In this document: piece by piece, positions 7,630-26,302 of the stretch
Layout: every line of letters starts with the position of its first letter
Numbering within the stretch: position 1 is the stretch's first letter
Origin: Oscillospiraceae bacterium
GTDB taxonomy: Bacteria > Bacillota > Clostridia > Oscillospirales > Ruminococcaceae
Reading direction: 5' to 3'
NCBI GenBank assembly: GCA_017462785.1
Contig: JAFTQJ010000027.1
Coordinates: forward strand, 1 to 49,339
Length of the DNA: 49,339 nucleotides
The notes under the pieces: generated by a model
What the model was told of the DNA's origin: nothing
The model's database searches: none
What the model saw: only the letters and a program-made list of their open reading frames with translations
Made by a program: the position numbers and the translations under genes

Positions 7630-7645
7630 CAGTTTTCCTCCTGTT

Positions 7646-7671
7646 CCAAAAATCCCCGCCGGTGGGCGGGG
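7646..7671 (-). terminator. Terminator between the small membrane gene and nnr
   Basis: CCCCGCC (7654-7660) pairs with GGCGGGG (7665-7671) around GGTG; on the minus strand the stem is followed by ATTTTTGG. It begins 6 bases after the stop of the 7678-8202 gene. Confidence 0.8.
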
Positions 7672-7677
7672 GTGGGT

Positions 7678-10554: not shown

Positions 10555-10635
10555 AATACCTCCACCTTTCTGTTTTGCTGCCGCAGCAGCGATTTTTTCG
10601 TACACATTGTCGGGTTTCCCCTTCGTTCTGATGTC

Positions 10636-10641
10636 ATTATA
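10636..10641 (-). promoter_or_regulatory. Extended -10 promoter of the GH11 gene
   Basis: On the minus strand the sequence TGTGCTATAAT gives an extended -10 (TGn before a perfect TATAAT). No good -35 box stands 17 bases upstream, which is common for extended -10 promoters. It lies about 85 bases before the GH11 start. Confidence 0.6.
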
Positions 10642-10826
10642 GCACAAAACCCTTGAAAATTTCTTGAAAGAATGAAATAAATTTGAAGCATTTGTTTCGG
10701 AAGTTTGAATACGGAGGGAGGCAATGTCACATTCGGCGGACAGAGCATCTGCAAAAATCTGCATACAGACCAAAAAATTTCCAGTTTGTCTACTTCTGAA
10801 CAACTGGAATGTTATTATGATTATGG

Positions 10827-10855
10827 TTGAATTTGGGCGGAGAATGTGGTATAAT
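10827..10855 (+). promoter_or_regulatory. Predicted promoter of the MoxR-DUF4132 operon
   Basis: TTGAAT (10827-10832), 17-base spacer, perfect TATAAT (10850-10855). It leaves a leader of about 80 bases before the moxR start. The 387-base gap between the GH11 gene and moxR otherwise holds only the opposing GH11 promoter; no further gene is seen. Confidence 0.75.
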
Positions 10856-10941
10856 AAAGAGATAATACATAAAAGCGGACGAATCCCCCAAAACAAACAG
10901 AATTTTTTGATCATCTTGTACGATCACAGGAGGAACTACAT

Positions 10942-12051
10942 ATGGAACAGAATTTCATCAAACCGCCGGTGGAGGTACGCTGTGCAGAAGAGCTGGCGGT
11001 GCTGGCTCAAACGGATACCGGCAAAAAACCTGAAAACTGGAAGCTCTCCCCGAAAGCTGTGCGGACATTCATCCTCGGCGGTGAGGCGGTGCATCCGGAC
11101 GGCAGCAAAACAACCATCTCACGCAAATTCTACGGCAATGATGCCCTTGTGGAACGCTGCATCATCACGCTTGCCGGCAGCCGTGGTCTGATGCTCGTGG
11201 GCGAACCCGGCACGGCAAAAACGATGCTCTCGGAACTGCTCTCCGCTGCCATCTGCGGCGTGAGCACCAACACCGTACAGGGCACCGCCGGCACAACGGA
11301 GGACATGATCAAATACAGCTGGAACTACGCTCTCCTGCTCTCCAAGGGTCCGAGCCGTGAGGCACTCGTTCCGGCTCCGCTGCTGGTCGGCATGGAAAAG
11401 GGCATCTTTGCAAGATTTGAGGAGATCACCAGAACACCGGCGGAAATTCAGGACAGCCTGATCTCCGTCATGAGTGACAAGATCCTCAATATTCCGGAGC
11501 TGGGTGATGACGGCTTTGTCTTTGCAAAGCCGGGCTTCAACATCATCGGCACAGCAAATACCCGTGACAAGGGTGTCAATGAAATGTCCGGTGCTCTCAA
11601 ACGCCGTTTCAATTTTGAAACGGTCGCTCCCATCCGTGATGTGCGGCTGGAAAAGGAGATCATTGTCAAGGAAGCTCAGGATCTGGCAAGGGCTGGACAT
11701 ATTGACTGTCCGGTGGATACGGATGTTGCCGAGCTTCTGGCGGTCACTTATCACGAGCTGCGTGAGGGCGTGACGGCGGAGGGAACGCTGGTGGATCGTC
11801 CGGCGGCAGTCATGAGCACAGCGGAGGCGGTTTCCGTCTATTTCCAGACACTCAGCCATGCATGGTACTACGATGACGGCAGGATCGACCTGCGGCTCCT
11901 GACGGAAAACCTGCTGGGTGCGGTCTGCAAGGAAAACCGTGACGATCTGGAAAAGCTCAAGGGCTATTTCCACACAGCGGTCAAGGAAAAAAGTGCGAAA
12001 GAGGGCGGATTATGGAAAGCGTATTACGAAACAGGGAAATTTCTGAAATGA
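10942..12051 (+). CDS. MoxR-type AAA+ ATPase, YehL-like
   Basis: A 369-residue AAA+ ATPase, first gene of the operon. Walker A GEPGTAKT is at 87-94. The Walker B region reads GIFARFEEITR at 154-164, with Glu160-Glu161 where most relatives have Asp-Glu. Sensor 1 is GTANTRDKG (203-211) and the arginine pair at 221-222 is a candidate arginine finger. MoxR ATPases typically act with von Willebrand A proteins as chaperone or chelatase-like pairs, and a VWA gene lies two genes downstream. The sequence style and gene order match E. coli YehL, which is uncharacterised. AGGAGG about 10 bases upstream supports the ATG at 10942. The stop overlaps the next gene's possible ATGA start at 12048. Confidence 0.9.
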   Translation: MEQNFIKPPVEVRCAEELAVLAQTDTGKKPENWKLSPKAVRTFILGGEAVHPDGSKTTISRKFYGNDALVERCIITLAGSRGLMLVGEPGTAKTMLSELLSAAICGVSTNTVQGTAGTTEDMIKYSWNYALLLSKGPSREALVPAPLLVGMEKGIFARFEEITRTPAEIQDSLISVMSDKILNIPELGDDGFVFAKPGFNIIGTANTRDKGVNEMSGALKRRFNFETVAPIRDVRLEKEIIVKEAQDLARAGHIDCPVDTDVAELLAVTYHELREGVTAEGTLVDRPAAVMSTAEAVSVYFQTLSHAWYYDDGRIDLRLLTENLLGAVCKENRDDLEKLKGYFHTAVKEKSAKEGGLWKAYYETGKFLK

Positions 12052-14405
12052 TCCCCTGTGACATGCAGCAGCCCGTTCTGCTGTTTCCCGTCCGGCACCA
12101 CAGCCCCGTGTGCAGCTATCAGCTCATGCGGACGATCGCTGCCTACCAGCCGGACACCATCCTCATTGAGGGTCCGGAGAATGCCAATGAGCTGATCCCC
12201 ATTCTCACAAGTGAAGAAACGGTACTGCCGGCGGCGATCTATTATTTCTACAAGGATACGAAAAAGCTCGTCAGCGAGGAGGGCGAGGATTACCATTGCT
12301 ACTATCCGTTTCTGTATGCATCACCCGAGTACAATGCAATGGCAGAAGCGAAAAAGCTTGGCATTCCGACAAAATTCATTGACCTCCCATACAGTGAGAT
12401 CCTGATTCACACCAAAGGTGACAGGGGACTTCGCACGGAGCAGGAAAAACACAGCTATGCGGATGATTCCTACCTTGTGAAAAGCCGCTTTTATGCGAAG
12501 CTCTGTGAAAAAACGGGGCTTCGGAATTTCGAGGAGTTCTGGGAGAAATATTTCGAGATCGGCGGCATCCGGAAAACACCGGAGGCATTCATCCGGCAGA
12601 TGTACACCTACTGCATCCTCACACGCAGGGAAACACCGCAGGAGGAGATGGAAGCGGATGCAACATTTGCCCGTGAACAGTGCATGGCAGCACGGATTCA
12701 GGAGGCAATGCAGCAGTACAAAAAGGTGCTGGTCGTGACCGGAGGTTTTCACAGCCTCGGACTGCATGAGCTTTTGCAGGCAGAGGTCAAGACTCCGAAG
12801 CTGCACAGCTTTTCTCCGGAGGTGCAGAACTGCTACCCGATGGCGTATTCCTATGATGCGGCGGACGCTCTGCGAGGATATGCCTCCGGCATGCAGCATC
12901 CGCAGTTCTATGATGAGATCTGCAAAGACCTCCTTTCCGGCAGGGAGCCGGAGGGGGTCTATCGGGATCACACACTGGATCTGCTGGCGAGAACTGCCAA
13001 GGAATCGGCAAAAAAGGACATTCCCATTTCCATTGCCGATGTGACGGCGGCTTACTCCCTGATGGAGGGGCTGGCGGCTCTGCGTGGTGCACAGGAATGC
13101 GGCATGTATGAGCTTTATGACGGTGTGACTTCCTGCATGATCAAGGGCGAAAAGACGACGGCAAGTGCGATGCCGCTGGAGCTTCTCGGACGGCTTGCGA
13201 CCGGTGATGCGGTCGGCAGGATCGGCGACCGGACGCATGTGCCGCCGCTGATTGCGGATTTTGAAGCACAGTGCGAAAAATTCCGGCTCAAAGCGAGGAG
13301 TGCCGTGCCGCAGGAGGTGGAAATCCCCCTCTTTCAGAAAGGAAAGGGCATGGAGGAAAGCCGTTTTCTGCACCGGATGGAATTCCTCGGCACGGAATTT
13401 GCACAGCGGCTGAAAGGTCCCGACCTGCACAGGGGCACGGACAGGAGCCGTGTGCGTGAGGTCTGGAAATACCGCCGCACACCCCATACGGATGCGGTGC
13501 TGATCGACCATACGACGGACGGTGTGAATCTGGAGGAGGCATGCCGGACACTGGCTGGAAAGGCTCTGCACCGTGAGAGAAGATGTGAAATGGCTGCAAG
13601 GATCTCCGTGGACTGCTTTCTGATGGGGATCACGCTGCCGCCGCAGGATACCGCCTGCATGGAGGAGATTCTGGTGAATGACGGCGATTTCTTTTCCATC
13701 GGCAAGGGGCTGTATTATTTCGATATGCTCCATTCCCTGCGGATGCTCTACGGCTTTTCGGATGATGCAGTACTGCGGTATATTTCCCAGTGCTTCAGCA
13801 AGCTGACGGCTCTGCTGCCCACGATGGGGGATGTGCCGCCGGAGCATGCACAGGAATGCATTGAGATCTGCCGCATCCTCTACGGCGTGACGGGGCGTGT
13901 GCTGCCGGAGCGTCGGGAGGAGCTGGAGCTTGCCCTGCTCACGCTCACGGAGCGTGAAGAGAAGGAACCCTCCGTATTCGGTGCAGCTTCCGGTCTATTG
14001 TACGCAATGGACGGGAGCCGCCGGACACAGGCAGAGGGGGCAATGCGTGGCTATCTGCGTGGCAGTCTTGCGATGCAGAAGCAGGGTGCACTCTTCCTCA
14101 AGGGCTTGTTTGAAACGGCGAGGGACATTGCCCTGACGGATCAGAGCTTCCTGCGGATGACGGATGAGCTGATCGGGGGTATGGACTTTCAGGATTTTCT
14201 GGAGGTACTCCCCTCTTTGCGGCTGGCGTTCAGCTATTTCACGCCCTCCGAAATCCAGAGCACAGCGGCTGCGGCTGCGGCACTGCATGCAGGAGGTGCG
14301 GAGGACATTCTGCGGAAAAAGGCGGTCAATGAAGAGCTGTACCTGTTCGGTGCGGAGCTTGACCGTGAGATCTGCGGCATACTTGGAGAGGGGGCAACAG
14401 GATGA
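12012..14405 (+). CDS. DUF5682 protein, YehM-like, with TraB/ChaN-like motifs
   Basis: A 797-residue soluble protein. In the N-terminal 260 residues I see PVRHHSP (26-32), LIEGPENANE (51-60), FIDLPYS (122-128), a REQCMAARI segment (221-229) and VVTGGFHSLG (241-250). This series resembles the metal-site pattern of TraB/ChaN/EreA-like proteins, which would make it a hydrolase-fold domain; that link is my inference. The rest (about 300-797) is helical with no known motif. DUF5682 is assigned from the HHSP and IEGP signatures. Two starts compete: 12012, with a GAGGG box at good spacing but overlapping moxR by 40 bases, and 12048, an exact ATGA overlap. The stop overlaps the next start by four bases. 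Confidence 0.85.
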   Translation: MESVLRNREISEMIPCDMQQPVLLFPVRHHSPVCSYQLMRTIAAYQPDTILIEGPENANELIPILTSEETVLPAAIYYFYKDTKKLVSEEGEDYHCYYPFLYASPEYNAMAEAKKLGIPTKFIDLPYSEILIHTKGDRGLRTEQEKHSYADDSYLVKSRFYAKLCEKTGLRNFEEFWEKYFEIGGIRKTPEAFIRQMYTYCILTRRETPQEEMEADATFAREQCMAARIQEAMQQYKKVLVVTGGFHSLGLHELLQAEVKTPKLHSFSPEVQNCYPMAYSYDAADALRGYASGMQHPQFYDEICKDLLSGREPEGVYRDHTLDLLARTAKESAKKDIPISIADVTAAYSLMEGLAALRGAQECGMYELYDGVTSCMIKGEKTTASAMPLELLGRLATGDAVGRIGDRTHVPPLIADFEAQCEKFRLKARSAVPQEVEIPLFQKGKGMEESRFLHRMEFLGTEFAQRLKGPDLHRGTDRSRVREVWKYRRTPHTDAVLIDHTTDGVNLEEACRTLAGKALHRERRCEMAARISVDCFLMGITLPPQDTACMEEILVNDGDFFSIGKGLYYFDMLHSLRMLYGFSDDAVLRYISQCFSKLTALLPTMGDVPPEHAQECIEICRILYGVTGRVLPERREELELALLTLTEREEKEPSVFGAASGLLYAMDGSRRTQAEGAMRGYLRGSLAMQKQGALFLKGLFETARDIALTDQSFLRMTDELIGGMDFQDFLEVLPSLRLAFSYFTPSEIQSTAAAAAALHAGGAEDILRKKAVNEELYLFGAELDREICGILGEGATG

Positions 14406-15547
14406 ACAGCATGGAACAGCAGGATCAGCAGGCGGTGAACCGCTGGCGGCTGGTGCTCGGCGGCATGTCCGACCGGCAATTGCAGTTCGGCGGCAGTGCC
14501 CGTGAGATCCAGCGGTTTGAGAATATGGAGGAGCTGCTAGACTATCTCTATTCCAATGCACAGGGCGAGGATGTCCGCACAGCCGACAGAAAAGGCGGCA
14601 TGGGCGGCTCCGTCCTGAGTGCAGCGGAATGGATCACCAAGGTACGCAAGCTCTTCCCGAAAGAAACAACCGATGTGCTGGAAAAGCATGCACTGGAAGA
14701 ATTCAGGATGACCGAGCTGATCACGGATAAAAAGGTACTCGAAAAGCTGGAACCGGACATGGATCTGCTGAAATCCATCCTCCAGCTCAAACACCTGATG
14801 AAAGGCGAGGTACTGGAAGCGGCGAAGAAGATCGCCGAAAAGGTAGCGGAACAGCTGCGTGAAAAGCTGGAAAACAGCATCCGGCGTTCCATCCTCGGCA
14901 GGATCGACCGCAATTCCTCCAGCCCCGTGCATTCGGCAAGGAATCTGGACATCAAAAAGACCATACGCCGGAACCTGAAGCATTATGACACGGAGCAGAA
15001 CCGGCTTGTTTTGCAGGATGTGTATTTCAGCGACCGAGTGAAGAAGTACAGTACATGGCGTGTCATCATTGCGATCGACGAAAGCGGCTCCATGATGGGT
15101 TCTGTGATCTACAGTGCAGTCATGGCACAGATCCTCTCCCGTCTGCCGTTTGCGGACATCCGGCTGGTGATCTTTGATACAAGCGTGGTCGATCTTTCCG
15201 GCGAAGCGGAGGATCCGGCACAGGTACTCATGAGCGTCCAGCTCGGCGGCGGTACGAACATCGGCAGGGCTTTGCAGTACTGCGAGGGACTGATCGAAAC
15301 GCCCCACCGCACCTGTGTGCTGGTCGTGACCGATCTGTATGAGGGTGCACCGGAAAAATACCTGCTGAACACCAGCCGGAACATTCTGGAAAGCGGTGCA
15401 AAGCTGAATTTTCTCACAGCACTCGATGAAGAAGCCAATCCGGCATTTGACCGGAATCTCGGACAGAAGCTTGCGGACATGGGAGCCTTTGTCGGTGCCC
15501 TGACACCGGAACAGCTGGGGGACTATATCGGGAGGATGTTCTCCTGA
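14402..15547 (+). CDS. VWA domain protein, YehP-like
   Basis: A 381-residue protein coupled by an ATGA overlap to the DUF5682 gene. The N-terminal half (about 1-200) is charged and helical with heptad-like stretches (VLEAAKKIAEKVAEQLREKL). The von Willebrand A domain occupies about 217-375 and has a complete metal-ion-dependent adhesion site: Asp226-x-Ser228-x-Ser230 in AIDESGSM, Thr285 in GGGTNIG and Asp311 in VVTDLYEG. An intact site suggests regulated binding of a metal-bridged ligand, probably coupled to the MoxR ATPase. There is no signal peptide or membrane segment, so it is cytosolic. It corresponds to YehP by domain and gene order. Confidence 0.9.
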   Translation: MNSMEQQDQQAVNRWRLVLGGMSDRQLQFGGSAREIQRFENMEELLDYLYSNAQGEDVRTADRKGGMGGSVLSAAEWITKVRKLFPKETTDVLEKHALEEFRMTELITDKKVLEKLEPDMDLLKSILQLKHLMKGEVLEAAKKIAEKVAEQLREKLENSIRRSILGRIDRNSSSPVHSARNLDIKKTIRRNLKHYDTEQNRLVLQDVYFSDRVKKYSTWRVIIAIDESGSMMGSVIYSAVMAQILSRLPFADIRLVIFDTSVVDLSGEAEDPAQVLMSVQLGGGTNIGRALQYCEGLIETPHRTCVLVVTDLYEGAPEKYLLNTSRNILESGAKLNFLTALDEEANPAFDRNLGQKLADMGAFVGALTPEQLGDYIGRMFS

Positions 15548-15550
15548 GCG

Positions 15551-15587
15551 AAAAGCTTTGCTTTTTTAGTATCCGCCTGCGGCGGAT
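15551..15587 (+). other. Two triloop hairpins between the VWA and SWIM genes
   Basis: AAAAGC-TTT-GCTTTT (15551-15565) is followed by two further T, then ATCCGCC-TGC-GGCGGAT (15571-15587). This is the only real gap (61 bases) between the first five genes of the operon. The first hairpin with its T-tail could act as a weak attenuator; the second resembles the C(GNA)G triloops of the dispersed repeats when read on the minus strand. Confidence 0.6.
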
Positions 15588-15608
15588 GATCGGAAGGGAG
15601 TGAACACA

Positions 15609-17624
15609 ATGGAAGAACTCAAAACAGCCCTCGCAGCAGCGGATGAAGCCTATCTCACCGGCATGTCCAACAAAGGGCTGTACAAACGTGCCTGCAAGGA
15701 CATTGACGGTGCACAGGTGGAGGCGGAATATGACGGGAACACGGCAAAAGTTTCCCTCTGCGGTGAAACCTGCACCATTACAGCTCCCCTCTGGGAGAGC
15801 AAATGCTCCTGCCCATCAAGAAGCGTTTGCCGGCACATCATCGGTGCGGTGCTCTGGCTGAAACAGCAGCTTTCCGAGGATGCGGAAGAACCCGAAGAGG
15901 AAGAGGAGCACCCGAAAGAGCCGGAACAGATCAGCACGGAGCTTGCGGATGCTCTGCGGAGCATCACGCCGAATGCACTCAAACGGGCACTCGGAAAGGA
16001 ACTGGCGAAAACAGCGGAGGATGTGCGGAACGGACGCATCACGCTCACGGAAAGCAGTATCCTCTCGGCACAGCTGCCCGACGGCACGGCGGTCAGACTG
16101 CTCCATCCGCTGGGATTTTCTACCTGTGCCTGCCACCGCAAGGAGCTTTGCAGTCACAAGGCGGCGGCGGTGCTTGCATGGCAGGCGGCACAGGGCATCC
16201 TCCAGCCGGAGGAATTGCTGGAACAGGCACAGACCCTCTCCGCATCAGAAACCGCAGGCATCCACGAAATTGCTGCCCATGCACAGGAAGTGCTCTGCGA
16301 GGTGCTGCAATGGGGATTGGTGCGGATGCCGGACAATCTGCCGGAACACCTCGAAGTTGCGGCGGTGCAGTGCCACAGTGCGAAAATGGCGGACGGTGAA
16401 CGCCTTCTGCGTGAGCTTGGGAGCAGACTGCATGACTGCCGTGAACGCCGTGCGGCATTTTCGGCGGAGGTATTCCTGCGGCGGTTCGGGGAATGTGCCG
16501 CATGCCTCGAACGGATGCGGGCGGAAAGCCTGACCGAATCTGACCTCGGTGCATTCCGGAAAAGCTACACGCAGTACAGCGGCGACCTGACGATTCTCCC
16601 CGTCGGCATGCGTACCATGCAGGGGGGAGATTATGAGGGGGAGATTTATTATTTCCTGAATATGGACAAAAACGCAGAGGACAGATTCCTGAGCTTCTCC
16701 GATTTAAGACCCGTATTCTATGAGAGTACGCAGAAGCGTGCAAGGCGGACAAGTGCAGTGCCGTGGAGCCTGAACATGCCGCTGCGGTCGGCAATGAAAA
16801 CGAAAATGACCCTGCTCAATGCCAAAGTTTCGGACGGCAAGCTTTCCTCCTCGCAGGAAACCTTTGTCGCCGGCACATCCCCTGCCAATCTTGACTGTGA
16901 AGAGATCCGGCAGATGCTGTACCGTGATTTCCGGAAGCTGGCGGCGGATCTTTCCGCAAAACAGCCCGAGCATGAGCTGCAAAGGCTCTGCTTTGTGCAT
17001 CCGCAGGCATGCACGGAAAGCGGCTTTGACAAGCACACACAGCAGTTTTACATGACACTTGCCGACCATGCAGGCAATCATATCACCGTCAAGGCACGGT
17101 ATACCGCTGAGAGCAAACAATTCATCGAGCTTCTTGAACGGATCGGAAAGGGCATGACGGAACATCCGGAAAAGCCCTATGTTCTGCTGTGTTCTGCGTA
17201 TTTTGAGGACGGTGCACTCTGCTTGTTCCCGATCGAGATCTATGATTTCATCCGTGTGCCGGAGGTATCGGAGAGCTGGCAGCCGCCGGAGCAGCTTGCA
17301 GCGGAAAGGACGAAATATGCCAAGGATGTGCTGGACGTGCTGGCAGAGGCGGAGGGCTGGCTGTGTGAGGTCATGCAGTCGGGTCTGCAAGCGGCAGGCA
17401 GCACGGGCAGGGAGCTTGCGGAGCGTGCAAAGGAGCACGGTCTGCACGGACTTGCACAGCGGCTCACGGCATTTGCAGAAAGTGCGGAGCAGAGCCGCCA
17501 TTCGATCAGAAAGGACTGCACGGATGCAGTGCACCATGCAGCCGGATGCATACAGTATATTCAGACCGGCAGAGAAAAACTTGAAGTTCTGTCGGCAATC
17601 AGAAAGATGGGAGGAACATCATAA
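15609..17624 (+). CDS. Double SWIM zinc-finger protein, YehQ-like
   Basis: A 671-residue cytosolic protein with two SWIM-type zinc-binding motifs in its first 190 residues: Cys66-x-Cys68 with Cys74-x-His76 (CSCPSRSVCRH) and Cys173-x-Cys175 with Cys181-x-His183 (CACHRKELCSH). SWIM fingers bind nucleic acid or protein partners. An acidic stretch (residues 92-106, mostly Glu) separates the two. The remainder (200-671) is helical and unrecognised. The start is the ATG at 15609, eight bases after GGGAG; a GTG at 15600 lies inside the ribosome site and is rejected. The stop overlaps the next ATG (TAATG). It corresponds to E. coli YehQ by domain and position. Confidence 0.88.
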   Translation: MEELKTALAAADEAYLTGMSNKGLYKRACKDIDGAQVEAEYDGNTAKVSLCGETCTITAPLWESKCSCPSRSVCRHIIGAVLWLKQQLSEDAEEPEEEEEHPKEPEQISTELADALRSITPNALKRALGKELAKTAEDVRNGRITLTESSILSAQLPDGTAVRLLHPLGFSTCACHRKELCSHKAAAVLAWQAAQGILQPEELLEQAQTLSASETAGIHEIAAHAQEVLCEVLQWGLVRMPDNLPEHLEVAAVQCHSAKMADGERLLRELGSRLHDCRERRAAFSAEVFLRRFGECAACLERMRAESLTESDLGAFRKSYTQYSGDLTILPVGMRTMQGGDYEGEIYYFLNMDKNAEDRFLSFSDLRPVFYESTQKRARRTSAVPWSLNMPLRSAMKTKMTLLNAKVSDGKLSSSQETFVAGTSPANLDCEEIRQMLYRDFRKLAADLSAKQPEHELQRLCFVHPQACTESGFDKHTQQFYMTLADHAGNHITVKARYTAESKQFIELLERIGKGMTEHPEKPYVLLCSAYFEDGALCLFPIEIYDFIRVPEVSESWQPPEQLAAERTKYAKDVLDVLAEAEGWLCEVMQSGLQAAGSTGRELAERAKEHGLHGLAQRLTAFAESAEQSRHSIRKDCTDAVHHAAGCIQYIQTGREKLEVLSAIRKMGGTS

Positions 17625-20600
17625 TGCTTTACGCAAACGGAAATGAAACCAACGACTATACAGGGCTGTTCAAGGCTCTTTCTGACATCGGTGTGACGGA
17701 CGAGGTGCTGGCAGTTGCAGCGGAATACCTCGATCTGTCCAAGCCCATGGACAATACACTGCTCCGGCAGATCACACCGGTGGACATGACTGCAAGGATC
17801 GGCTATCAGGAGCGTGAACTGCTCGGCAAATTTGCGGAGCGTGAGATCCTCCGTCCGCAGAATGAAGAGCTGCGTGACCGCTATGTCCTGCTCTGCGAGG
17901 CGATCGCCGGCAATACCTGTGCCGGCATGATCTACGGCACCGCACTCAATCAGCATCATGAACGTGCACTCAGATGCCGCTATGGTGCGGAAGCGGATGC
18001 GGTGAAGCTTGCGTTTGATATGCAGGTGTTCTCCAATGCAGGCTGGGCAAGACTGCCGGAATGCACGGACATCCGGACGCTTGCCGCAGCGATGGATCAT
18101 TGCATTGCGGCTCATCCGGCGGCAAAGCTCCTGCTCTGTGCGTATATCCTGACGATCGAGCCGATTCCGGAGAGAAAGCTCCTGTTCAAGACAAAGCCCA
18201 GTGCCGAAGCACAGAAAGCGATCGCATTCGTGGAGGAATGCTGGAGGAGCATTGCAGGCTTCCGTTCGGATGCCAAGAGCATTCTCCATCTGATGACGGC
18301 ATCTGCGGCGGCTTCATTCTTCTCGGAATTCGCCGCTACGCAGTTCCACGGGAATATCAAATCTCACAAGATCAATACTGCGGAGCTTGCAGTCCGCATG
18401 CCCACCCAGAATGCGGCTGTCCGCATCCTGCTTTCCATCGCAGGCAACCCCTGCGGCAATGATGCGGAATTCATCCAGAAGGTCGCAATGTGGACAAACC
18501 CGAAGAATCCTGCCCTTGCTGACGGCGGTGTGCTGGGAGATCTCGCAAAGCGTTACCCCGAAACCTACCGCAAGGCACTGACACAGGCATCCGAGAACCC
18601 GAGCCTTGCTGTTGTGATGGAACAGGTGTTCAGACAGGCGGTACCGGATTATCAGGGGGAACAGAAGGATGTCAGAGAGCTTGCAAAAGCCAAATGCAAA
18701 GAGGCGATCTGTGACGATTTCACGGACTGCAAGGAAGAGGTCAGAGCCTACCTTAACGGCGAAATCACGCTTGAAAGCCTCCTGCCCCTTGCATCAAAGA
18801 TGGAAACACGCAAATGGTACTACAACAGAAAGCGTGTGAATTATGTGGCGGCGTTCGGTGTGGATGATTTTGCAAAACGCTGCATCTGCGTACAGGCAAT
18901 GGCAGTCAATGGCTTGTCCTACTATGGGCACAGTACCCCCGGCTATGAGGTCAAGGGAAATGAACGGGGATTTGTTGCCATCCTGCGTGAGGAGGGCATG
19001 CCGTTTGAGCGTATTTTCAAATGTGCCGGTGAGCTGGTGGAGGATGCACCGGATTACAGCGGCATCCGTGTGGAGATGCGTGATAAATTCTTCCTCGAAT
19101 TCTCCAAGAACCCCGCTGAGGTCGCAGCCTGTGAGCTGAAGCCCCTGAATGTGACGGGCAGAAGTCTGTATCTGGAGATCCTCGGCAAACAGCCGGAAGC
19201 CTACAAATCCGAGATCCTCTCCCTTGCCGATGACGGCAGCAAGATCATCCGTGCGGAGCTTGCGGCATATCTCAAACAGCATCCTGAATGGATCGCTGAC
19301 GTGCTGGCACTGCTGACAGCAAAGAAAGCGGCGAAGCGTGAGCTGGCAGCCGAAGTGCTGACTGCGTTTGACATTGCGGCTCATCGGGAGGCGGTGCAGG
19401 CGGCGTTTGAAGCGGAGAAGAAAGCGGACATCAAGCAGAAGCTTGCCGTCCTGCTCGGTGAAGAGGTGCCGGAGGAGGCAGCAGCGGAAACAACGGCTGA
19501 CCTCATTAAGGATCTGACCAAGGGCAACAAGGCGAAGAAGCTTCAGTGGCTGTTTGATACGCCCTTTGCCGCAGTCCGCAATGCGGACGGTACGGAAGCG
19601 GATACTGCCCATTTGCAGGCGATTCTCCTTTGCTATGCGAATATGACGGTGTTCAGCGTGAGCGACATGGCAAAACAGCTGGCGGCACTGCTGAATGAAG
19701 CGGATCTGGCAGCATTCTCGCTGGAGGTGCTCGGCAAGTGGCTGGAACAGGGTGCACCGGCAAAGCAGAAATGGGTGCTCCATGCGGCTGCACAGCATGG
19801 CGGCTATGAAGCACAGACCACACTCCTGCACTACATCAAGGACTGGTCGGAGCATTCGAGAGGTGCGATCGCAGCAGAGGCAGTCCGTGCGATCGCTTTC
19901 AAGGGCACCTCCGAAGCACTGATGGCAGTTGACCAGATGGCACGGAAATTCAAGAACCGTCAGGTTCGCTCTGCGGCAGCGGACGCACTCGCTCAGGCAG
20001 CGGAAGCTCTGCACATCACCACCGAGGAGCTGGCGGACAGGATCGTGCCGAATCTCGGCTTTGATGAGAACCTCTGCCGTGAATTCGACTACGGCGCGAG
20101 AAAATTCAGGGTGTACCTGACACCGGCACTGGAGCTGGAGATCTTCGAGGGCGAAAAGAAGCTGAAAAATCTCCCCAAGCCCGGTGTGAAGGATGATGCG
20201 GAAATTGCAGAAAGCTCCTCCAAGGCATTCAAGGAAATGAAGAAGCAGATGAAAAACGTCATCGCTGCCCAGAAGCAGAGGCTGGAATATGTGCTCATGT
20301 GCCACAGAACATGGACGGCGGAGGGCTGGCAGGAATTGTTTGTGAAAAATCCTGTGATGCACTGCTTTGCCATCGGTCTGATCTGGGGTACCTATGATGC
20401 GGACGGTGCACTGCTCGACACGTTCCGCTACATGGAGGACGGCACGTTCAATACGGCGGATGAGGATGAATATGAGCTGCCCGAACAGGCAGTGATCGGT
20501 CTGGTGCATCCGATCGAGCTTGCGGAGGATGTGCTTTCCGCATGGACGGAACAGCTGGCGGATTATGAGATCACCCAGCCCTTTGCACAGCTTTCACGCC

Positions 20601-21013
20601 CCGTATTCACCGTGGAGGAGGACGAAATGAAGCAGACGGATTCCCTCTGCTTTGCGGACAGAAAGATCAACAACCTCTCCCTCCTCGGCAGAATGACAAA
20701 ATACGGCTGGGACAAGGGCACACCGCAGGATGCCGGCTTCTTCTATGAGTTCACACGCTCGGATGTGATCCGCCGTGAAAAGGACGAAAAGGGGAATCTG
20801 CGGAATGTGGGCAATGCCGCAGAGCTGACCTTCTCGGGCACCTGCGTTGCTGTCTATGAGCGCGAGGATGTGACCATTGACAAGGTGAAGTTCTACCGCA
20901 TCGGTGACAATCATCCCGTTGTGCTCTCCGAGGTCAATGCACGCTATTTCAGCGAGATCATGATGCAGCTTTCTGCCGCACTGGCTGTGGCAGCTGCGGA
21001 GAAAGAGGAATGA
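17624..21013 (+). CDS. DUF4132 / MolR-like giant protein, YehI-like
   Basis: A 1129-residue cytosolic protein overlapping the SWIM gene by one base (TAATG), with GGGAGG upstream. The middle is rich in helical repeats, reminiscent of HEAT/ARM arrays (for example LAVVMEQVFRQAVPD and AIAAEAVRAIAFKGT). The C-terminal third carries the DUF4132 signature: ELADRIVPNLGFDE, FDYGARKFRVYL, LKNLPKPGVKDD, CHRTWTAEGWQELF, GLVHPIEL and DYEITQPFAQLSRPVF. E. coli YehI and MolR share this domain; the old link of MolR to molybdate regulation is weak. As the largest and last cytosolic partner it could be a scaffold or effector on which the ATPase-VWA pair acts; that is inference. Confidence 0.88.
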   Translation: MLYANGNETNDYTGLFKALSDIGVTDEVLAVAAEYLDLSKPMDNTLLRQITPVDMTARIGYQERELLGKFAEREILRPQNEELRDRYVLLCEAIAGNTCAGMIYGTALNQHHERALRCRYGAEADAVKLAFDMQVFSNAGWARLPECTDIRTLAAAMDHCIAAHPAAKLLLCAYILTIEPIPERKLLFKTKPSAEAQKAIAFVEECWRSIAGFRSDAKSILHLMTASAAASFFSEFAATQFHGNIKSHKINTAELAVRMPTQNAAVRILLSIAGNPCGNDAEFIQKVAMWTNPKNPALADGGVLGDLAKRYPETYRKALTQASENPSLAVVMEQVFRQAVPDYQGEQKDVRELAKAKCKEAICDDFTDCKEEVRAYLNGEITLESLLPLASKMETRKWYYNRKRVNYVAAFGVDDFAKRCICVQAMAVNGLSYYGHSTPGYEVKGNERGFVAILREEGMPFERIFKCAGELVEDAPDYSGIRVEMRDKFFLEFSKNPAEVAACELKPLNVTGRSLYLEILGKQPEAYKSEILSLADDGSKIIRAELAAYLKQHPEWIADVLALLTAKKAAKRELAAEVLTAFDIAAHREAVQAAFEAEKKADIKQKLAVLLGEEVPEEAAAETTADLIKDLTKGNKAKKLQWLFDTPFAAVRNADGTEADTAHLQAILLCYANMTVFSVSDMAKQLAALLNEADLAAFSLEVLGKWLEQGAPAKQKWVLHAAAQHGGYEAQTTLLHYIKDWSEHSRGAIAAEAVRAIAFKGTSEALMAVDQMARKFKNRQVRSAAADALAQAAEALHITTEELADRIVPNLGFDENLCREFDYGARKFRVYLTPALELEIFEGEKKLKNLPKPGVKDDAEIAESSSKAFKEMKKQMKNVIAAQKQRLEYVLMCHRTWTAEGWQELFVKNPVMHCFAIGLIWGTYDADGALLDTFRYMEDGTFNTADEDEYELPEQAVIGLVHPIELAEDVLSAWTEQLADYEITQPFAQLSRPVFTVEEDEMKQTDSLCFADRKINNLSLLGRMTKYGWDKGTPQDAGFFYEFTRSDVIRREKDEKGNLRNVGNAAELTFSGTCVAVYEREDVTIDKVKFYRIGDNHPVVLSEVNARYFSEIMMQLSAALAVAAAEKEE

Positions 21014-21015
21014 AC

Positions 21016-21654
21016 ATGAAACAGAAAATCACTGCAATGCTGCTCTGTGCTGCCGTCCTGCCGGTTTTGTCCGGCTGTGACGGCTCCGGACAGCCCGATG
21101 CAGACACAGAAACCGCCGCCCCGACAGAAGCCGCTTCTGCATCCGCAGAAACAGAAACCCTTCCGGAGATTCCGGAAGGGGCGATTGCGGACGCATCCGG
21201 CTCCTTTGTCTACACGGGTCCTCTGCGTCAGGGGGGCGATGACGAAAACGGCTATATTCAGGTGCCGCTTGGCTATGTATCCTTTCAGGAGGAGGGCGTT
21301 TCGGGGCTGACACAGTACTCGGATGTCAGCGGTACGAATATCATCACACTCGACCATTATGCGGACATTGACTACCAGACGGCAGCCAACAACCTGCGGT
21401 ATTACATGCAGGAGGATGCCACGATCGAGGGGCTGACGGGTGCAACAGTACAGATCAACGGCTACAATTCCCTCCAGCTTTACTGCCATTTCACGGATGT
21501 GGACAAGTTTCTGGTGACGTGGCTGATCGAGGATCCTGCCGATCCTGCGGACTGCTATTATCTGGCGATCGAGTTCACGAGTGAGGATGCCAATGTCATG
21601 GCATGCTCCTCCACGTTCCAGACGAAGGAGGACTATCACGCTGCGGCGGAATAA
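21016..21654 (+). CDS. Lipoprotein at the end of the yeh-like operon
   Basis: A 212-residue exported lipoprotein with signal peptide and lipobox VLSGC, followed by a Thr/Ala/Glu-rich linker (about 25-55) and a globular part of about 150 residues (GYIQVPLGYVSF, then NIITLDHYADIDYQTAA, then LVTWLIEDPADPADCYYLAIEF). The pattern loosely recalls DcrB/PsbP-like secreted domains, not confidently. The start at 21016 is chosen because GAGGA is six bases upstream; an ATG at 21010 overlaps the DUF4132 stop and is too close to the box. It is two bases past the preceding gene, so cotranscribed. E. coli has a lipoprotein gene (yehR) after yehQ, but I see no clear sequence match. Confidence 0.75.
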   Translation: MKQKITAMLLCAAVLPVLSGCDGSGQPDADTETAAPTEAASASAETETLPEIPEGAIADASGSFVYTGPLRQGGDDENGYIQVPLGYVSFQEEGVSGLTQYSDVSGTNIITLDHYADIDYQTAANNLRYYMQEDATIEGLTGATVQINGYNSLQLYCHFTDVDKFLVTWLIEDPADPADCYYLAIEFTSEDANVMACSSTFQTKEDYHAAAE

Positions 21655-21665: not shown

Positions 21666-21698
21666 AAAACGGCTGCCTGTGCGGGCAGCCGTTTTGCT
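21666..21698. terminator. Bidirectional terminator after the yeh-like operon
   Basis: AAAACGGCTGCC (21666-21677) pairs with GGCAGCCGTTTT (21684-21695) between two convergent genes, giving a T-run in both directions. Confidence 0.9.
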
Positions 21699-21699: not shown

Positions 21700-24666
21700 T
21701 TATGTTGCCTGTAATAGAATCCGTTTGAGCACTGCAAGGTCGAATGCATTCACAGCTCCGTCCTTGATACGGTTGGCGGCGAGGAAGTCGATCGCATTCC
21801 CCTCACCCAGCAGATACTGCTGCAGGGCGATGATGTCAGCCACATTTTCTGCACCGTCCCTGTTCACATCACAGCTCTCTGCGGAATCTGTGACTCTTTC
21901 GAGATACTCCACATGATAGTCCGTATCTGCAAGTACCTTAGCAGCCGCACTGTCCGCATAGGTATAGATGATAGTATCCTTCGGGAATGCATTTTCGCCG
22001 ATCGATGTGATCGTACCCGGAAGTACGACCTCCCTGACATCGGTTCCCCAGAAAGCTTCCGGCTGGATGCTGCTGATGTCGTACTGCTTGCCGTCAATCG
22101 TGACCATCGGCGGAATGACAAGGCTTGTACCCTCTGCAAGTCCGCTGTTATTCTCCCAGATCATGCCGGCACTGTCGCCGACGCTGACCTGATTTGTTCC
22201 GGTCACGGCATACCGCACGCCCTGTGCATCCGCACCATTGGTCAGGGGGAATACAAGTGCGTCAAAATCAGTCCGTGTTTTGTCCATCTCATAATAGGGG
22301 TACAGCTCCACCGTTCCCATTGCAATGAAATCTTCGTCAATGATTGCGGAGCGATCGCCCTCCCTCGTGGTAAAGCCCAGCAGCCTGTACACCGCATTGT
22401 CCTGCGTTTTGCTTTCGGGGCATTCCCTGTCGAGCAGAGAAAGCACGGTCACAGCCTCCAGATGCGTGATGCTCTGGTGGCAGGTATCCTTGAAGCCGTA
22501 AGTTCCCGTGTACTGCACATCCCCGTCCGGCAGATGGAACGTCACATCATATCCTGCATGACCGCCCTCGACAAAGCCCAGCGGTGTGAGCTTCGCACCT
22601 GTCACGCCGCCCAGAGATGTGTAGGTGTCCTCGCTCCAGTAGTTTCTGCCGTCATTGATGGAAAACGCTGAAAGCTGGCTGTTTCCTTTGACGGTGGAAA
22701 CATCCGGACAATTGAACACAGAGCCGTAGAACGGAATATGCATCGCATAATAGCCGTCCTTTTCGATCACCTGATTGCGTGTGTTCAGCCCGTAGGTCGT
22801 GTATGCCGAGCCGTAGCCCTTGCCGTCCAGCGTGAAGGCGGCGTACCAGTTGCCGAGCTGGATGGGTGCAGTCACGCCCTCCGTTTTGTAGAGGAACGTA
22901 AACCCGAAATGCCCGTCCTCCGTGAAATTCCACACCTTGTCAAGCAGGTGGATGGTTTCTGTTTCGTTGAGGGGAATCGCCTGTTTTTCGGGATAATAAC
23001 CAGCTGCCCTTGTGTCGGGGTTCTCCGGCTTTTCTGCATCCGGCTCTCCGGCAACGGTCAGGCTGCCCATGTAGTTCGCCTGCAATTCCTCGGAAAACTG
23101 CAAGTCCGCATTGGCAAACTTCACCGCAAACGCCCTGTCAAAGGCAGGGTCCTCATTCTCCTCGGAGATCCGCAGATAAACATCCCATTCACCGCCCGGC
23201 ATGGTTTTCGGGAGCGTCAGCCCGATCTCCAGCTCGTTGCGTGAGCCGGATGCCCAGTCACGGGCATTCATCGTCGGGGCGGAATAGGTATAGAGAATGT
23301 CCCCGTTCGTCAGGAGGAATTCCACTTCCTTATCCTTGGGAGCTTCAGAAAAGCCCGTATTTTCGATGGTAAACTCCATGTTCAGCTCACCGCCCGGCTC
23401 TGACTGTGCCGTCAGGCGGCTTTCTCGCAGGACGTAGCGGTAGCCCAGATGTGCACGCATGTACTGATAGACCGTTTCGCCGTAGAAAGCGGAATTGTCG
23501 CATTCCGTATCCAGCAGTGCGTCCAGCTCTGCGTCAAAGGTGAAATCATCATAGCCCATCCACTTCCAGCCTGCGGTAAATGTGCCGTCCTCATTGGCAG
23601 TCACGGTCGGGGCTTCATCATAACCGCCCAGTCCGCAGTTTTCGTACAGCGTCCGGATCGCATCCAGCCGTGCCTGTGCCTCCTCCTGTGTGGCAAAATT
23701 CTGGGTCACGGTACGGCTTCTGTAAAGGTTGCTGTTGATCCGCACGAGGTTCGTGTAATACATCTCCGGCAGGGCATTTTCCGGCTGCCATGTGGTATAT
23801 TTCAGCCGCCATTCATCATTGCCCGAAAATTCGCCGCCGTAGGCAGGGGCAGCCGTCAGCCACGCCGTTTCGCCGGCACGGTTGGAGTAGGTGCCGAGGT
23901 CGCTGTCCGACCCCATATAGCCGTCATTGTACATGCCGACCCTCGCCGCCTTTGCCGCAAGCTCCGGATCGGTGATCTCGTAGGACATGTCCGCAGCCGT
24001 GGTTTCGATGCCGCAGTAATCCTTCAGCCACTGCCGCATGGTGTTCGGTGTGCGGACGGTCACGGCTACGCTGTCGGGAGTGATATTCAGGAAGGCATCA
24101 AGCACCTGTGCCTTGTGTTCGAGGGAGGTGTATTTGCCGCCCCACTGCTCGCCCCAGCAGCCGACCATGCCGGTTTCCACAAAGGAAATCACATCCTCAT
24201 ACTCGGTCAGCAGACCGCTTTCCCCGATCTGCTCAATATGCCGGAGCACCTGTTCAAATGACGCAGGCTCGGGCTTTTCAATGCCGTTGGCATCGTAGCG
24301 GAAACGAATGCCGAGCATTGCACCGTTCTTTCTGGCATTTGCAAGCGTCCCCTCAAGGCTGGTGAAAAATGCCTCGTCAAAATCATAGTCCGTGCCGCTT
24401 TCGTTCATTGCGGAGGAGTAGCCGGCAATGCTGATGAGCAGGAGTGTGTAGCGTGTGGGGGAGGCTGTCCAGATCTTGTCCGGTGCGGCGTTGATCCATG
24501 GTGTGGAGGTGAAGCCGCAGTCGGGGTATTCGAGGTCATAGCCCGTGTATTCCGTATAATTCAGTCCTGCATCCTTCAGCTCGGATGCAGCGGACACAGG
24601 CAGTGCAGCTGTGAGCTGCAAGCCCGTACAGACGGCAAGAAATGCCGCAGTCAAGCGTTTTTTCAT
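21700..24666 (-). CDS. Dockerin protein with DUF4874/DUF4832 putative glycosidase region
   Basis: A 988-residue secreted protein. Signal peptide 1-27; DUF4874-like region about 30-200 with VETGMVGCWGEQWGG, where Glu164 and Glu173 are candidate catalytic acids; DUF4832-like region to about 430; two beta-rich modules, one CBM-like around WNFTEDGHFGFTF; a short BspA-like leucine-rich segment (TSIGENAFPKDTIIYTYADS) before the C-terminus; and a dockerin at 932-988. The first dockerin loop (DVNRDGAEN) is normal, while the second (NRIKDGAVN) lacks the usual first Asp, suggesting weakened calcium binding. The substrate is unknown. The gene begins 12 bases after the barnase-like gene's stop and shares its transcript. 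Ribosome site GGGGTG. Confidence 0.85.
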   Translation of the reverse strand: MKKRLTAAFLAVCTGLQLTAALPVSAASELKDAGLNYTEYTGYDLEYPDCGFTSTPWINAAPDKIWTASPTRYTLLLISIAGYSSAMNESGTDYDFDEAFFTSLEGTLANARKNGAMLGIRFRYDANGIEKPEPASFEQVLRHIEQIGESGLLTEYEDVISFVETGMVGCWGEQWGGKYTSLEHKAQVLDAFLNITPDSVAVTVRTPNTMRQWLKDYCGIETTAADMSYEITDPELAAKAARVGMYNDGYMGSDSDLGTYSNRAGETAWLTAAPAYGGEFSGNDEWRLKYTTWQPENALPEMYYTNLVRINSNLYRSRTVTQNFATQEEAQARLDAIRTLYENCGLGGYDEAPTVTANEDGTFTAGWKWMGYDDFTFDAELDALLDTECDNSAFYGETVYQYMRAHLGYRYVLRESRLTAQSEPGGELNMEFTIENTGFSEAPKDKEVEFLLTNGDILYTYSAPTMNARDWASGSRNELEIGLTLPKTMPGGEWDVYLRISEENEDPAFDRAFAVKFANADLQFSEELQANYMGSLTVAGEPDAEKPENPDTRAAGYYPEKQAIPLNETETIHLLDKVWNFTEDGHFGFTFLYKTEGVTAPIQLGNWYAAFTLDGKGYGSAYTTYGLNTRNQVIEKDGYYAMHIPFYGSVFNCPDVSTVKGNSQLSAFSINDGRNYWSEDTYTSLGGVTGAKLTPLGFVEGGHAGYDVTFHLPDGDVQYTGTYGFKDTCHQSITHLEAVTVLSLLDRECPESKTQDNAVYRLLGFTTREGDRSAIIDEDFIAMGTVELYPYYEMDKTRTDFDALVFPLTNGADAQGVRYAVTGTNQVSVGDSAGMIWENNSGLAEGTSLVIPPMVTIDGKQYDISSIQPEAFWGTDVREVVLPGTITSIGENAFPKDTIIYTYADSAAAKVLADTDYHVEYLERVTDSAESCDVNRDGAENVADIIALQQYLLGEGNAIDFLAANRIKDGAVNAFDLAVLKRILLQAT

Positions 24667-26096: not shown

Positions 26097-26302
26097 TCCA
26101 TACTTCTATTATACCATATTCCGAGCAAAAAGTAAACTGCCCGTTTATCTGAAATTGCTGAACCGGAATTGTTCATGTCCACAATTCAGAACAGAAAGTA
26201 ATAAAGTCAACATCGTCCTGTACAGGTCAATATCTTTGCGTTGTTTATACACATCCCAGAAAAGAGGATTTGATTCCTGCAAGGATTTGTTCAATTTACA
26301 TA

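Follow-up and report, generated by a model that had tools for sequence, protein, structure and literature searches.

A conserved MoxR–VWA gene set with a predicted TraB/TIKI-superfamily domain in its DUF5682 protein, related to yehLMPQ of Escherichia coli and ddrTUVWX of Deinococcus

Results

Gene Content and Layout of the Locus

The window, i.e., the whole stretch of 49,339 nucleotides of an Oscillospiraceae bacterium analyzed here, carries six genes at positions 10942–21654; these genes and the window's motifs and sites given with coordinates below are on the plus strand. The genes lie where a sequence-only reading of this DNA had placed them, the ORF check shows no internal stops, and the original observation of a six-gene unit holds.

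The first gene (10942..12051) encodes, as had been claimed, a MoxR-type AAA+ ATPase of 369 aa (Pfam AAA_5, E 1.9e-31; the bpMoxR model scores below its cut-off). Walker A, GEPGTAKT, is at 11200–11223, and the Glu-Glu of Walker B at 11419–11424; this Glu-Glu, shared with YehL, and 49% identity to YehL place the protein in the YehL subfamily. Residues K93, E160, E161, N206, R221, and R222 are kept in 91/91 aligned relatives. The second gene (12012..14405) encodes the expected DUF5682 protein (Pfam DUF5682, E 3e-91), of 797 aa unless it starts from the ATG at 12048; the ATGA considered possible at the MoxR/DUF5682 junction is present (12048–12051), yet the open frame of DUF5682 begins upstream of it, at 12012. 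The next junction has an ATGA at 14402–14405, confirmed from the sequence, and leads into a CoxE-like VWA protein of 381 aa (14402..15547; Pfam VWA_CoxE, E 7.1e-41). Its metal site is intact, with the D-x-S-G-S of the MIDAS at 15077–15091, and residues D226, S228, S230, T285, and D311 are invariant in 81/81 aligned relatives; the VWA domain extends to residue 371 of 381, with no effector behind it.

The fourth gene (15600..17624, GTG start) encodes a double-SWIM zinc-finger protein of 674 aa: two CxC-CxH motifs are read in the translation (15804–15836 and 16125–16157), and Pfam SWIM covers two stretches (E 9.3e-5). It is joined by TAATG (17622–17626, as described before) to the gene of a 1129-aa HEAT-repeat DUF4132 protein, a relative of YehI/MolR (17624..21013; Pfam DUF4132, E 9e-52; domain at 20156–20710). 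The HEAT-like character that had been read from the sequence is matched by HEAT_2 at E 8.8e-5, below the curated cut-off of that model, and among solved structures the DUF4132 profile matches best to HEAT-like repeat proteins, the majority of them designed.

The last gene (21010..21654) encodes a lipoprotein with the lipobox LSGC in its translation; its ATG is either the one at 21016, two bases past the preceding stop as originally stated, or the one at 21010, with an ATGA overlap. Pfam gives no match above cut-off for this protein, apart from the protein itself its profile finds in the scanned loci just one partial copy, in L045, and YehR of E. coli is not matched by blastp at E ≤ 1. The lipoprotein had been counted among the conserved parts; it is a local passenger outside the conserved system.

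A promoter-like site lies at 10827..10855: TTGAAT-17-TATAAT, the -10 hexamer being preceded by TG (consensus scan, 10/12 matches). Since the region has six such sites where 5.3 are expected, its position is the main argument for it. Directly 3' of the last gene, a terminator-like hairpin of 13 pairs (21666..21695) is the longest of three plus-strand hairpins listed; the hairpin scan gave 16 over the two strands, compared with 9.8 in shuffles.

The N-Terminal Domain of DUF5682

Profile comparison (hhalign) aligns the N-terminus of the DUF5682 protein, residues ~16–257, with the TraB family over the whole domain (probability 91.5, pairwise E 8.6e-7, score 62.4). Control scores do not exceed 27.5 for the MoxR, VWA, SWIM, and DUF4132 profiles and 17.0 for 30 column shuffles, and the reversed profile scores 21.5. 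Pfam is weakly concordant: at E ≤ 0.1, ChaN is matched by 7/40 and TraB by 4/40 DUF5682 members, all below the curated cut-offs shown. The presumed catalytic residues are H29 (codon 12096–12098), E53 (12168–12170), R221 (12672–12674), and H247 (12750–12752), each invariant in 79/79 proteins aligned. Such a His-Glu pair, basic residue, and distal His have equivalents in TIKI enzymes, from which the roles of the residues are taken (PMC6254334). Judged by the whole-domain profile similarity beyond controls and by these residues, the N-terminus of DUF5682 is assigned here to the TraB/TIKI superfamily, an identity that is new and had gone unnoticed in the sequence-only reading, and the protein is predicted to act as a hydrolase.

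DUF5682 does not have the first Glu of the 2His/2Glu set described for Ere/RRSP and carries Val27 at that place. The aligned TraB sequence likewise has no such Glu. A search of solved structures with the DUF5682 profile gave no match below E 0.03. Part of a DUF5682 protein is also encoded by one unannotated 14-kb phage record.

Conservation and Spread of the Gene Set

The proposed equivalence with E. coli yehI–yehLMPQ is borne out by blastp, with 49% identity for MoxR, 26% for DUF5682, and 39% for VWA; the N-terminus of the SWIM protein is 25% identical to YehQ residues 1–189, and the C-terminus of the DUF4132 protein 30% identical to YehI over 434 residues. The window has the five families (MoxR, DUF5682, CoxE-like VWA, SWIM, and DUF4132) adjacent on one strand, as a cluster of yehI/LMPQ type. 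The same coupling, claimed earlier, is seen in 50/58 related loci with enough flank, where all five genes are on one strand in four gene orders (27, 15, 6, and 2 loci). Within the loci sampled, MoxR, DUF5682, VWA, and SWIM are not mostly found apart from one another, while for DUF4132 separate occurrence is partly observed: 4 of the 7 genomes with DUF4132 among 299 Bacillota genomes are without DUF5682. Apparent loss of MoxR in L098, L115, and L124 was rejected as an artefact of gene picking in GC-rich DNA. The occurrence of the set ranges from gut bacteria to E. coli, with relatives in several phyla; no function of yehLMPQ was found in the literature searched.

Several features of this spread would suit an anti-phage or conflict system, in which MoxR–VWA would form a threshold switch, the HEAT and SWIM proteins sensors, and the TIKI-like domain an effector, as in MoxR–vWA ternary systems. 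The distribution is patchy, with 12/100 genomes of the window's family (the window included) above the DUF5682 cut-off; the long partner varies by lineage; L041 and L011 have insertions of LRR or TPR genes; DUF4132 matches reach seven per genome, fragments among them; and the system also occurs on plasmids, once adjoining a type I restriction system. In a comparison of neighbors, proteins encoded by 120 of 292 flank ORFs (150–700 aa, loci L045–L097) matched 69 PADLOC models against 12 for 16 control regions (120 of 204 ORFs), models and not proteins being counted. Among the 69, 25 are listed, all but one of them single-member and most of them related PDC-S05 models, hence the excess seems to be due to few proteins. 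Against such a system, no PADLOC-DB 2.0.0 model fits any of the six proteins (best E 0.03); the yehLMPQ quartet belongs to the core of E. coli, at least 80% covered in 5162/5426 genomes; the VWA domain reaches nearly to the end of its protein, with no effector following it; Pfam finds neither VMAP nor iSTAND among the six proteins; and radiation is the signal to which the closest relative of known regulation responds. One of 41 DUF4132 relatives has a VMAP-M7 match (E 0.081). We regard this reading as unlikely, and a dedicated phage-defence role, raised by the sequence-only reading, is not supported.

A Sister Branch That Includes ddrTUVWX

In the MoxR tree, a sister branch is set off by a long inner branch of 1.63–1.73 changes per site. 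Its clusters comprise SWIM, another long partner, MoxR, DUF5682, and VWA, and are without DUF4132; DUF4132 is replaceable as the long partner, which is reported here for the first time, this partner being HEAT-DUF4132, HEAT, or DUF5691, depending on the lineage. The DUF5691 and DUF4132 profiles are hardly related (E 0.025, with two DUF5691 sequences only), and the DUF5691 model has one match (5.1e-4) among 41 DUF4132 proteins. Membership of the Bacillota HEAT partner in the DUF5691 family was rejected (profile comparison E 0.44, again with two DUF5691 sequences only).

The ddrTUVWX operon of the radiation-resistant Deinococcus belongs to this sister branch, also a new result and one that the sequence-only reading had missed: DdrV is placed there with an SH-aLRT of 100. 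The gene order in Deinococcus taeanensis is SWIM-DUF5691-MoxR-78 aa-DUF5682-VWA, the extra 78-aa gene between ddrV and ddrW having been described (PMC9510100). The ddrT gene was found with a profile of Bacillota sister-branch SWIM proteins, which themselves match the window-type SWIM proteins at E 7e-8. The window has the SWIM, MoxR, DUF5682, and VWA components of ddrTUVWX, and DUF4132 where ddrTUVWX has DUF5691. The ddrTUVWX genes are radiation-induced under the control of IrrE/DdrO, and an RDRM precedes each homolog present in the species examined (PMC5552922); for DRA0166, a DUF4132 gene of Deinococcus, a place in a DdrO-target operon and a rise under mitomycin C have been described (PMC8533742). 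Because the sister branch includes the radiation-induced ddrTUVWX, a role in DNA damage or stress becomes the more likely one. For the five-gene form, the evidence of induction comes from the sister branch, which is without DUF4132.

The DUF4132 literature also bears on another reading, a chaperone for cofactor or metal insertion in the style of CoxDE and NorQD, with DUF5682 itself or a molybdenum enzyme as the client (cf. the old name MolR). It would fit the CoxE-like window VWA, the insertion of metal by NorQD through remodelling of the linker of a VWA protein (PMC13036017), the metal requirement of some TIKI proteases (PMC6254334), and the molybdopterin link suggested for DUF4132 in PMC8533742, where, however, the molybdate genes moeA and moeB of D. 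radiodurans did not move with the DUF4132 gene. Moreover, Pfam finds no oxidoreductase among the five conserved parts, to which this count applies; a client gene may lie among the neighbors. To our knowledge, the usual company of such chaperones does not include SWIM, HEAT, and WGR proteins. Taken together, we consider metal insertion rather improbable.

RDRM and LexA-Type Sites

The RDRM, described as a 17-bp palindrome, was scanned for with motif letters that we take to represent it; published sites agree with those letters. An RDRM-like site with two mismatches lies upstream of D. taeanensis ddrT, its end 19 bases from the start of the gene; it is the only match within three mismatches in 25 kb. 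As 30/100 shuffles also have a match somewhere in 25 kb, only its position counts. Upstream of the window operon, no RDRM is present within three mismatches, the best site having four.

Box scans used what we take to be the LexA consensus. The loose pattern GAACNNNNGTTC with at most one mismatch is found in 20/70 operons, the window's match falling in the coding start; with coding bases left out, 13/70 operons remain, against a mean of 4.6 in shuffles. Six of those 13 are related Paenibacillaceae, so that the excess comes largely from one family. The full consensus with at most two mismatches is found in 8/70 operons (2.2 in shuffles), and the operon of Priestia abyssalis has a perfect LexA-type box upstream; no second perfect site occurs in the 70 loci (1.37 Mb). 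No LexA-type box within two mismatches lies upstream of the window operon. We consider these boxes suggestive.

Discussion

The reading that we prefer, with a probability of roughly 40%, is that the five genes encode one machine of the DNA-damage or oxidative-stress response, in which a MoxR–VWA remodeller would work with a TIKI-type DUF5682 hydrolase. A protein target would be remodelled at the expense of ATP by the MoxR ring, for which the CoxE-like VWA protein would be the co-factor. DUF5682, the fixed partner, would be a hydrolase by its TIKI/TraB-type domain, most likely a peptidase, activated, loaded, or controlled by MoxR–VWA; the long partner (HEAT-DUF4132 here, HEAT or DUF5691 in the sister branch) and the SWIM protein would choose the target. 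The invariance of the Walker A and MIDAS residues agrees with an ATP-driven complex, as proposed earlier, and so does the natural fusion of DUF5682 to VWA in one locus (L112), which is new here; complex formation itself, as well as the nature of the target and the same role for the window's form, we infer.

WGR domains in PARPs bind DNA breaks. As some DUF4132 proteins carry a fused WGR, the target would probably be a damaged nucleoprotein; this fusion, also present in annotated E. coli strains, is seen in only 2/41 DUF4132 proteins, which weighs against the preferred reading, as do the missing first Glu of the Ere/RRSP set (Val27), the lack of close RDRM and LexA-type matches upstream of the window operon, the single-family origin of much of the loose LexA excess, the sister-branch source of the induction evidence, and the molybdopterin link that PMC8533742 itself suggests for DUF4132.

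The same remodeller and peptidase might serve general protein quality control, acting on misfolded proteins with HEAT and SWIM adaptors and with no specific link to DNA. HEAT solenoids bind proteins, and chaperone-like roles of MoxR proteins have been described (PMC3893208). The SWIM and WGR domains, and regulation by DdrO, speak instead for a link to nucleic acid or DNA damage, and we consider general quality control improbable.

More doubtful still is a specific form of the stress-response machine, namely, that yehLMPQ–yehI/molR, ddrTUVWX, and the window locus are forms of one bacterial machine for proteolysis at DNA lesions. In it, a WGR/HEAT or SWIM protein would find the lesion; the protein that blocks it would be pulled by the MoxR–VWA ring and cut by the TIKI-type domain of DUF5682. 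If true, this would be a bacterial counterpart, in kind and not by descent, of the eukaryotic ATPase-plus-protease repair of DNA–protein crosslinks. More generally, the ddrTUVWX link and the predicted TIKI identity give genes of yehLMPQ type a hypothesis that can be stated concretely: a stress-induced hydrolase machine driven by ATP. Such a machine would add a kind to the MoxR–VWA systems, with a third fixed part that is enzyme-like instead of a metal-enzyme client or a conflict-system regulator.

Comparison With Known Systems

RavA–ViaA, CoxD–CoxE, and NorQ–NorD share with the window an AAA+ ring with a VWA partner; we know of no work of these with DUF5682, SWIM, or DUF4132 partners, and RavA has the usual Asp-Glu in Walker B, in contrast to the Glu-Glu in 91/91 aligned MoxR proteins of YehL type. 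The MoxR–vWA ternary conflict systems (PMC7159879) resemble the locus in the MoxR–vWA core, a further conserved component, and changing partners, whereas Pfam finds none of their named third components, VMAP and iSTAND included, in the six proteins. With the TIKI/TraB/Ere/ChaN superfamily, the N-terminal domain of DUF5682 shares His, Glu, Arg, and His in step, and differs by ~540 further residues and by its place in an ATPase operon.

The ddrTUVWX operon is closer: the D. taeanensis MoxR, DUF5682, and VWA proteins are 43, 25, and 30% identical to those of the window (blastp), a SWIM protein and a long partner stand in one operon with them, and the MoxR Walker B is Glu-Glu. It differs in having DUF5691 for DUF4132, with SWIM and partner before MoxR, in its RDRM operator and published radiation induction, and in its separate branch of the MoxR tree.

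In E. coli K-12, yehI–yehK–yehLMPQ, with yehF and yehH/molR (chromosome 2196474–2210944), differs in that DUF4132 comes first, a second copy, yehH, is an annotated pseudogene, the WGR protein YehF and YehK are present, and its lipoprotein, YehR, shows by blastp no relation to that of the window. It nevertheless has the same five families in one cluster, a MoxR of the YehL subfamily, and the presumed catalytic residues of DUF5682.

Operon Structure and Counterpart in E. coli

The six open reading frames that the sequence-only reading placed at 10942–21654 are found there, on the forward strand and with no internal stops. Pfam assigns AAA_5, DUF5682, VWA_CoxE, SWIM (two stretches), and DUF4132 to the encoded proteins; the HEAT_2 match of the DUF4132 protein is below the curated Pfam cut-off, and the lipoprotein has no Pfam family above the cut-off. 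The gene junctions overlap or almost touch, the exception being 52 bases ahead of the SWIM gene. A consensus scan gives a promoter-like TTGAAT-17-TATAAT with TG ahead of the −10 element at 10827–10855 (forward strand), and a hairpin of 13 pairs lies at 21666–21695 (forward strand). With these at the two ends, the six genes look like a single transcription unit, a reading based on position, as promoter-like sites are about as many in the scan as in shuffles.

The operon neighbourhood is cellulosome-type. Dockerin-bearing enzymes lie on both sides, at 8401–10914 (reverse strand), 21700–24666 (reverse), and 26270–28504 (forward), and comprise a GH11 xylanase with CBM4_9 and polysaccharide deacetylase, a DUF4874/DUF4832 protein, and a GH10 protein with CBM4_9. 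Three consecutive DUF975 genes are seen at 1219–3699 (forward).

The same parts had been claimed for the E. coli yehI–yehLMPQ region, and Pfam indeed gives five identical families for YehI, YehL, YehM, YehP, and YehQ. Identity to the window is 49% for MoxR, 26% for DUF5682, 39% for VWA, 25% for the SWIM N-terminus, and 30% for the DUF4132 C-terminus; the YehL subfamily of MoxR proteins has been described previously (PMC3893208). The gene order in MG1655 is yehF (PF05406, WGR), yehH, yehI, yehK, yehL, yehM, yehP, yehQ, yehR, where yehH is a pseudogene assigned to DUF4132 by the profile made here. In E. coli strains, genes annotated as coding for a combined WGR and DUF4132 protein adjoin yehI. 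The lipoprotein, initially counted among the system's parts, does not match YehR, and among the loci scanned its only relative is a partial copy in L045, the nearest relative of the window.

Conservation and Gene Order

Relatives were sought by MoxR alignment, with one genome per species, and the best 80 of 589 related stretches were used; since these were ranked by similarity to the window, the sample is biased towards Bacillota. Among these best 80, 58 loci have at least 4.5 kb before and at least 9.5 kb after the MoxR start, and 50 of the 58 match all five families on one strand, in agreement with the conserved coupling proposed earlier. The order is MoxR-DUF5682-VWA-SWIM-DUF4132 in 27 of the 50, DUF4132-MoxR-DUF5682-VWA-SWIM in 15, MoxR-DUF5682-VWA-DUF4132-SWIM in six, and VWA-SWIM-DUF4132-MoxR-DUF5682 in two; three of the four orders are related by cyclic shift. 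The eight exceptions are L056, L095, L098, L102, L105, L109, L112, and L124. The full set is seen in Bacillota, Pseudomonadota (L101, L103), Planctomycetota (L100), Verrucomicrobiota (L106), Actinomycetota (L115, L123), and Bacteroidota (L085), and four of the five families are found in a Treponema locus (L087) up to the contig end.

Several loci have additional features. Two Ruminococcus loci (L047, L049) carry the cyclically shifted VWA-SWIM-DUF4132-MoxR-DUF5682 order, their close relatives being MoxR-first. In a genome of the window's genus (L041), two BspA-type leucine-rich-repeat genes of the operon (4979–5863 and 7020–7931) flank the VWA gene; a TPR-repeat gene lies between DUF5682 and VWA on the short contig of L011 (1630–3339); and MoxR and DUF5682 are separated by a UvrD-type helicase gene in L056 (11196–14762), with VWA, SWIM, and DUF4132 absent nearby.

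ATPase, VWA, and DUF5682 Proteins

All 91 aligned MoxR proteins keep the Walker A lysine, the sensor-1 Asn, and two Args. Their Walker B ends in Glu-Glu, again in all 91, at a place where RavA has Asp-Glu. The residues of the VWA metal site (MIDAS) are likewise invariant (81/81 VWA proteins of 340–450 aa). L112 has one 1248-aa open reading frame that joins DUF5682 (35–773) to the VWA domain (VWA_CoxE 1022–1243), a fusion that suggests contact between the two proteins.

Profile comparison places DUF5682 in the TIKI/TraB superfamily. Single DUF5682 sequences show sub-threshold matches to the ChaN and TraB models in 7 and 4 of 40 members, respectively (E up to 0.1). A DUF5682 profile (79 proteins of length 680–900, from 98 matches) aligns with a profile of 25 TraB-family proteins over 216 columns, window residues 16–257, with probability 91.5, pairwise E 8.6e-7, and score 62.4; the control scores are at most 27.5 for the other four families, at most 17.0 for 30 column-shuffled TraB profiles, and 21.5 for the reversed profile. 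The aligned signature His29, Glu53, Arg221, and His247 is kept in 79 of 79 DUF5682 proteins, and TIKI enzymes are reported to build their active site from a His-Glu pair together with a basic residue and a distal His (PMC6254334). Of the Ere/RRSP set, the first Glu is Val27 in the window protein, and the TraB sequence aligned with DUF5682 lacks this Glu too. Among solved structures, the DUF5682 profile retrieved no TIKI entry. The intact signature site argues for, rather than proves, a hydrolase.

Exchange of the Long Partner

DUF4132 is a separable module of the system. Among 299 Bacillota genomes, DUF5682 is above the cut-off in five, DUF4132 in seven, and both in three, where they share a contig a few kilobases apart each time; four genomes have DUF4132 without DUF5682 and two the reverse. 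Within the window's family, DUF5682 is above the cut-off in 12 of 100 genomes. The window-like form, type A (the window, G326, G333, G362, G396), has DUF4132 in five of five genomes, the G396 copy being on a different contig. In the sister branch, type B (G316, G327, G328, G361, G392, G394, and G314, which is 55% complete and typed by tree position), DUF4132 is found genome-wide in none of seven; it was likewise not found in G219 (type B) and G156 (untyped). Both types occur together in two non-Bacillota genomes, G398 (L100 and L161) and G401 (L106 and L160).

Of the seven long Bacillota type B loci sampled, six show the order SWIM (~480 aa)-HEAT protein (~620 aa)-MoxR-DUF5682-VWA, and the seventh (L035) is incomplete. 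The type B MoxR proteins form a single branch (support 100/100, length 1.73), and in a second MoxR tree (33 rows) this branch (SH-aLRT 100, length 1.63) contains L160, L161, DdrV, the MoxR of the Deinococcus operon ddrTUVWX, and its Hymenobacter relative. Beyond the zinc finger, the SWIM protein of Bacillota type B matches that of type A (E 7e-8); between the type B HEAT protein and the HEAT part of DUF4132 the match is weak (E 8.4e-5). A profile comparison based on two DUF5691 sequences, those of the Deinococcus and Hymenobacter partners, gives no link to the Bacillota HEAT partner (E 0.44) and scarcely any to DUF4132 (E 0.025); at the sensitivity of these profiles, therefore, the long partner is replaced and has not simply diverged.

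DUF4132 matches number up to seven per genome, some being fragments, and tandem copies precede the core in several loci. In L106, L116, L118, L079, and L094, two or three tandem or split DUF4132 genes lie directly before MoxR, with MoxR and DUF5682 single.

Defence and Mobility

The defence role considered possible from the sequence is not supported: by sequence coverage, 5162 of 5426 E. coli genomes contain 80% or more of yehLMPQ, and 4772 that much of the yehH–yehI region, and PADLOC gives no match for the six operon proteins. Among neighbours, proteins flanking the relatives of the operon matched 69 PADLOC models and proteins from control regions 12, an excess that seems to stem from a few proteins, each hitting many related models. 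In favour of mobility, a DUF5682 relative is encoded in 30 plasmid-collection records, several of them chromosome-sized, among them a conjugative Allorhizobium plasmid and a mobilizable Iodobacter plasmid on which the relative adjoins a type I restriction system. An unannotated 14-kb "Bacteriophage sp." record (MT835988.1, 11370–12755) codes for a partial DUF5682 protein, and a conjugative E. coli plasmid (L152, NZ_CP103756.1, 108377–127771) carries the chromosomal yehI–yehLMPQ–btsSR–mlrA stretch with an adjoining IS26 transposase gene.

Proposed Link to DNA Damage and Comparison With ddrTUVWX

The observed gene set, homologies, and residue invariance suggest that the five-part set may be an ATP-driven remodeller acting together with a TIKI-type hydrolase, whose targets would be picked by the long partner and the SWIM protein, and which might answer DNA damage or related stress; hydrolase activity, complex formation, and target are what we infer. 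The placement of DdrV and the missing partner homology weigh opposite ways on this reading.

Regulatory evidence for the DNA-damage link in type A is thin: one perfect LexA-type box, the sole one in 1.37 Mb, lies upstream of the Priestia abyssalis operon, and the window has no perfect box. A table of PMC5552922 gives D. radiodurans without ddrTUVWX; its DUF4132 protein DRA0166 and WGR protein DR2173 are reported as DdrO-controlled and up with mitomycin C (PMC8533742). A WGR domain is present in 2 of 41 DUF4132 proteins, and that of PARP2 is described as bridging DNA ends (PMC8190142).

Among open-licence PMC papers, none was found tying yehLMPQ to ddrTUVWX or DUF5682 to TIKI proteins. A Hymenobacter radiodurans plasmid (L179, NZ_CP037921.1), from an organism with a radiation-linked name, repeats the order SWIM-DUF5691-AAA-DUF5682; the DUF5682 annotation there is split in three, and the listing shows no adjoining VWA gene.

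A Deinococcus taeanensis TS293 plasmid encodes SWIM-DUF5691-AAA-78-aa gene-DUF5682-VWA (DUF5691 by Pfam, E 3.3e-14; SWIM, MoxR, DUF5682, and VWA by profiles built here). This strain is reported to have the D. deserti ddrTUVWX operon with an extra 78-aa gene between ddrV and ddrW (PMC9510100); from the gene order and the extra gene, ddrT, U, V, W, and X correspond to SWIM, DUF5691, MoxR, DUF5682, and VWA. An RDRM-like site (the operator motif of the operon) with two mismatches ends 19 bases before the ddrT start. The surrounding 25 kb contain no other site within three mismatches; 0.41 would be expected, and 30 of 100 shuffles contain such a site. The motif is reported upstream of every ddrTUVWX homolog present in the species covered by PMC5552922, which also describes IrrE-dependent radiation induction in D. 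deserti, more than 10-fold for the first gene and more than 5-fold for three further genes. ddrTUVWX belongs to the type B sister branch of the system found in the window.
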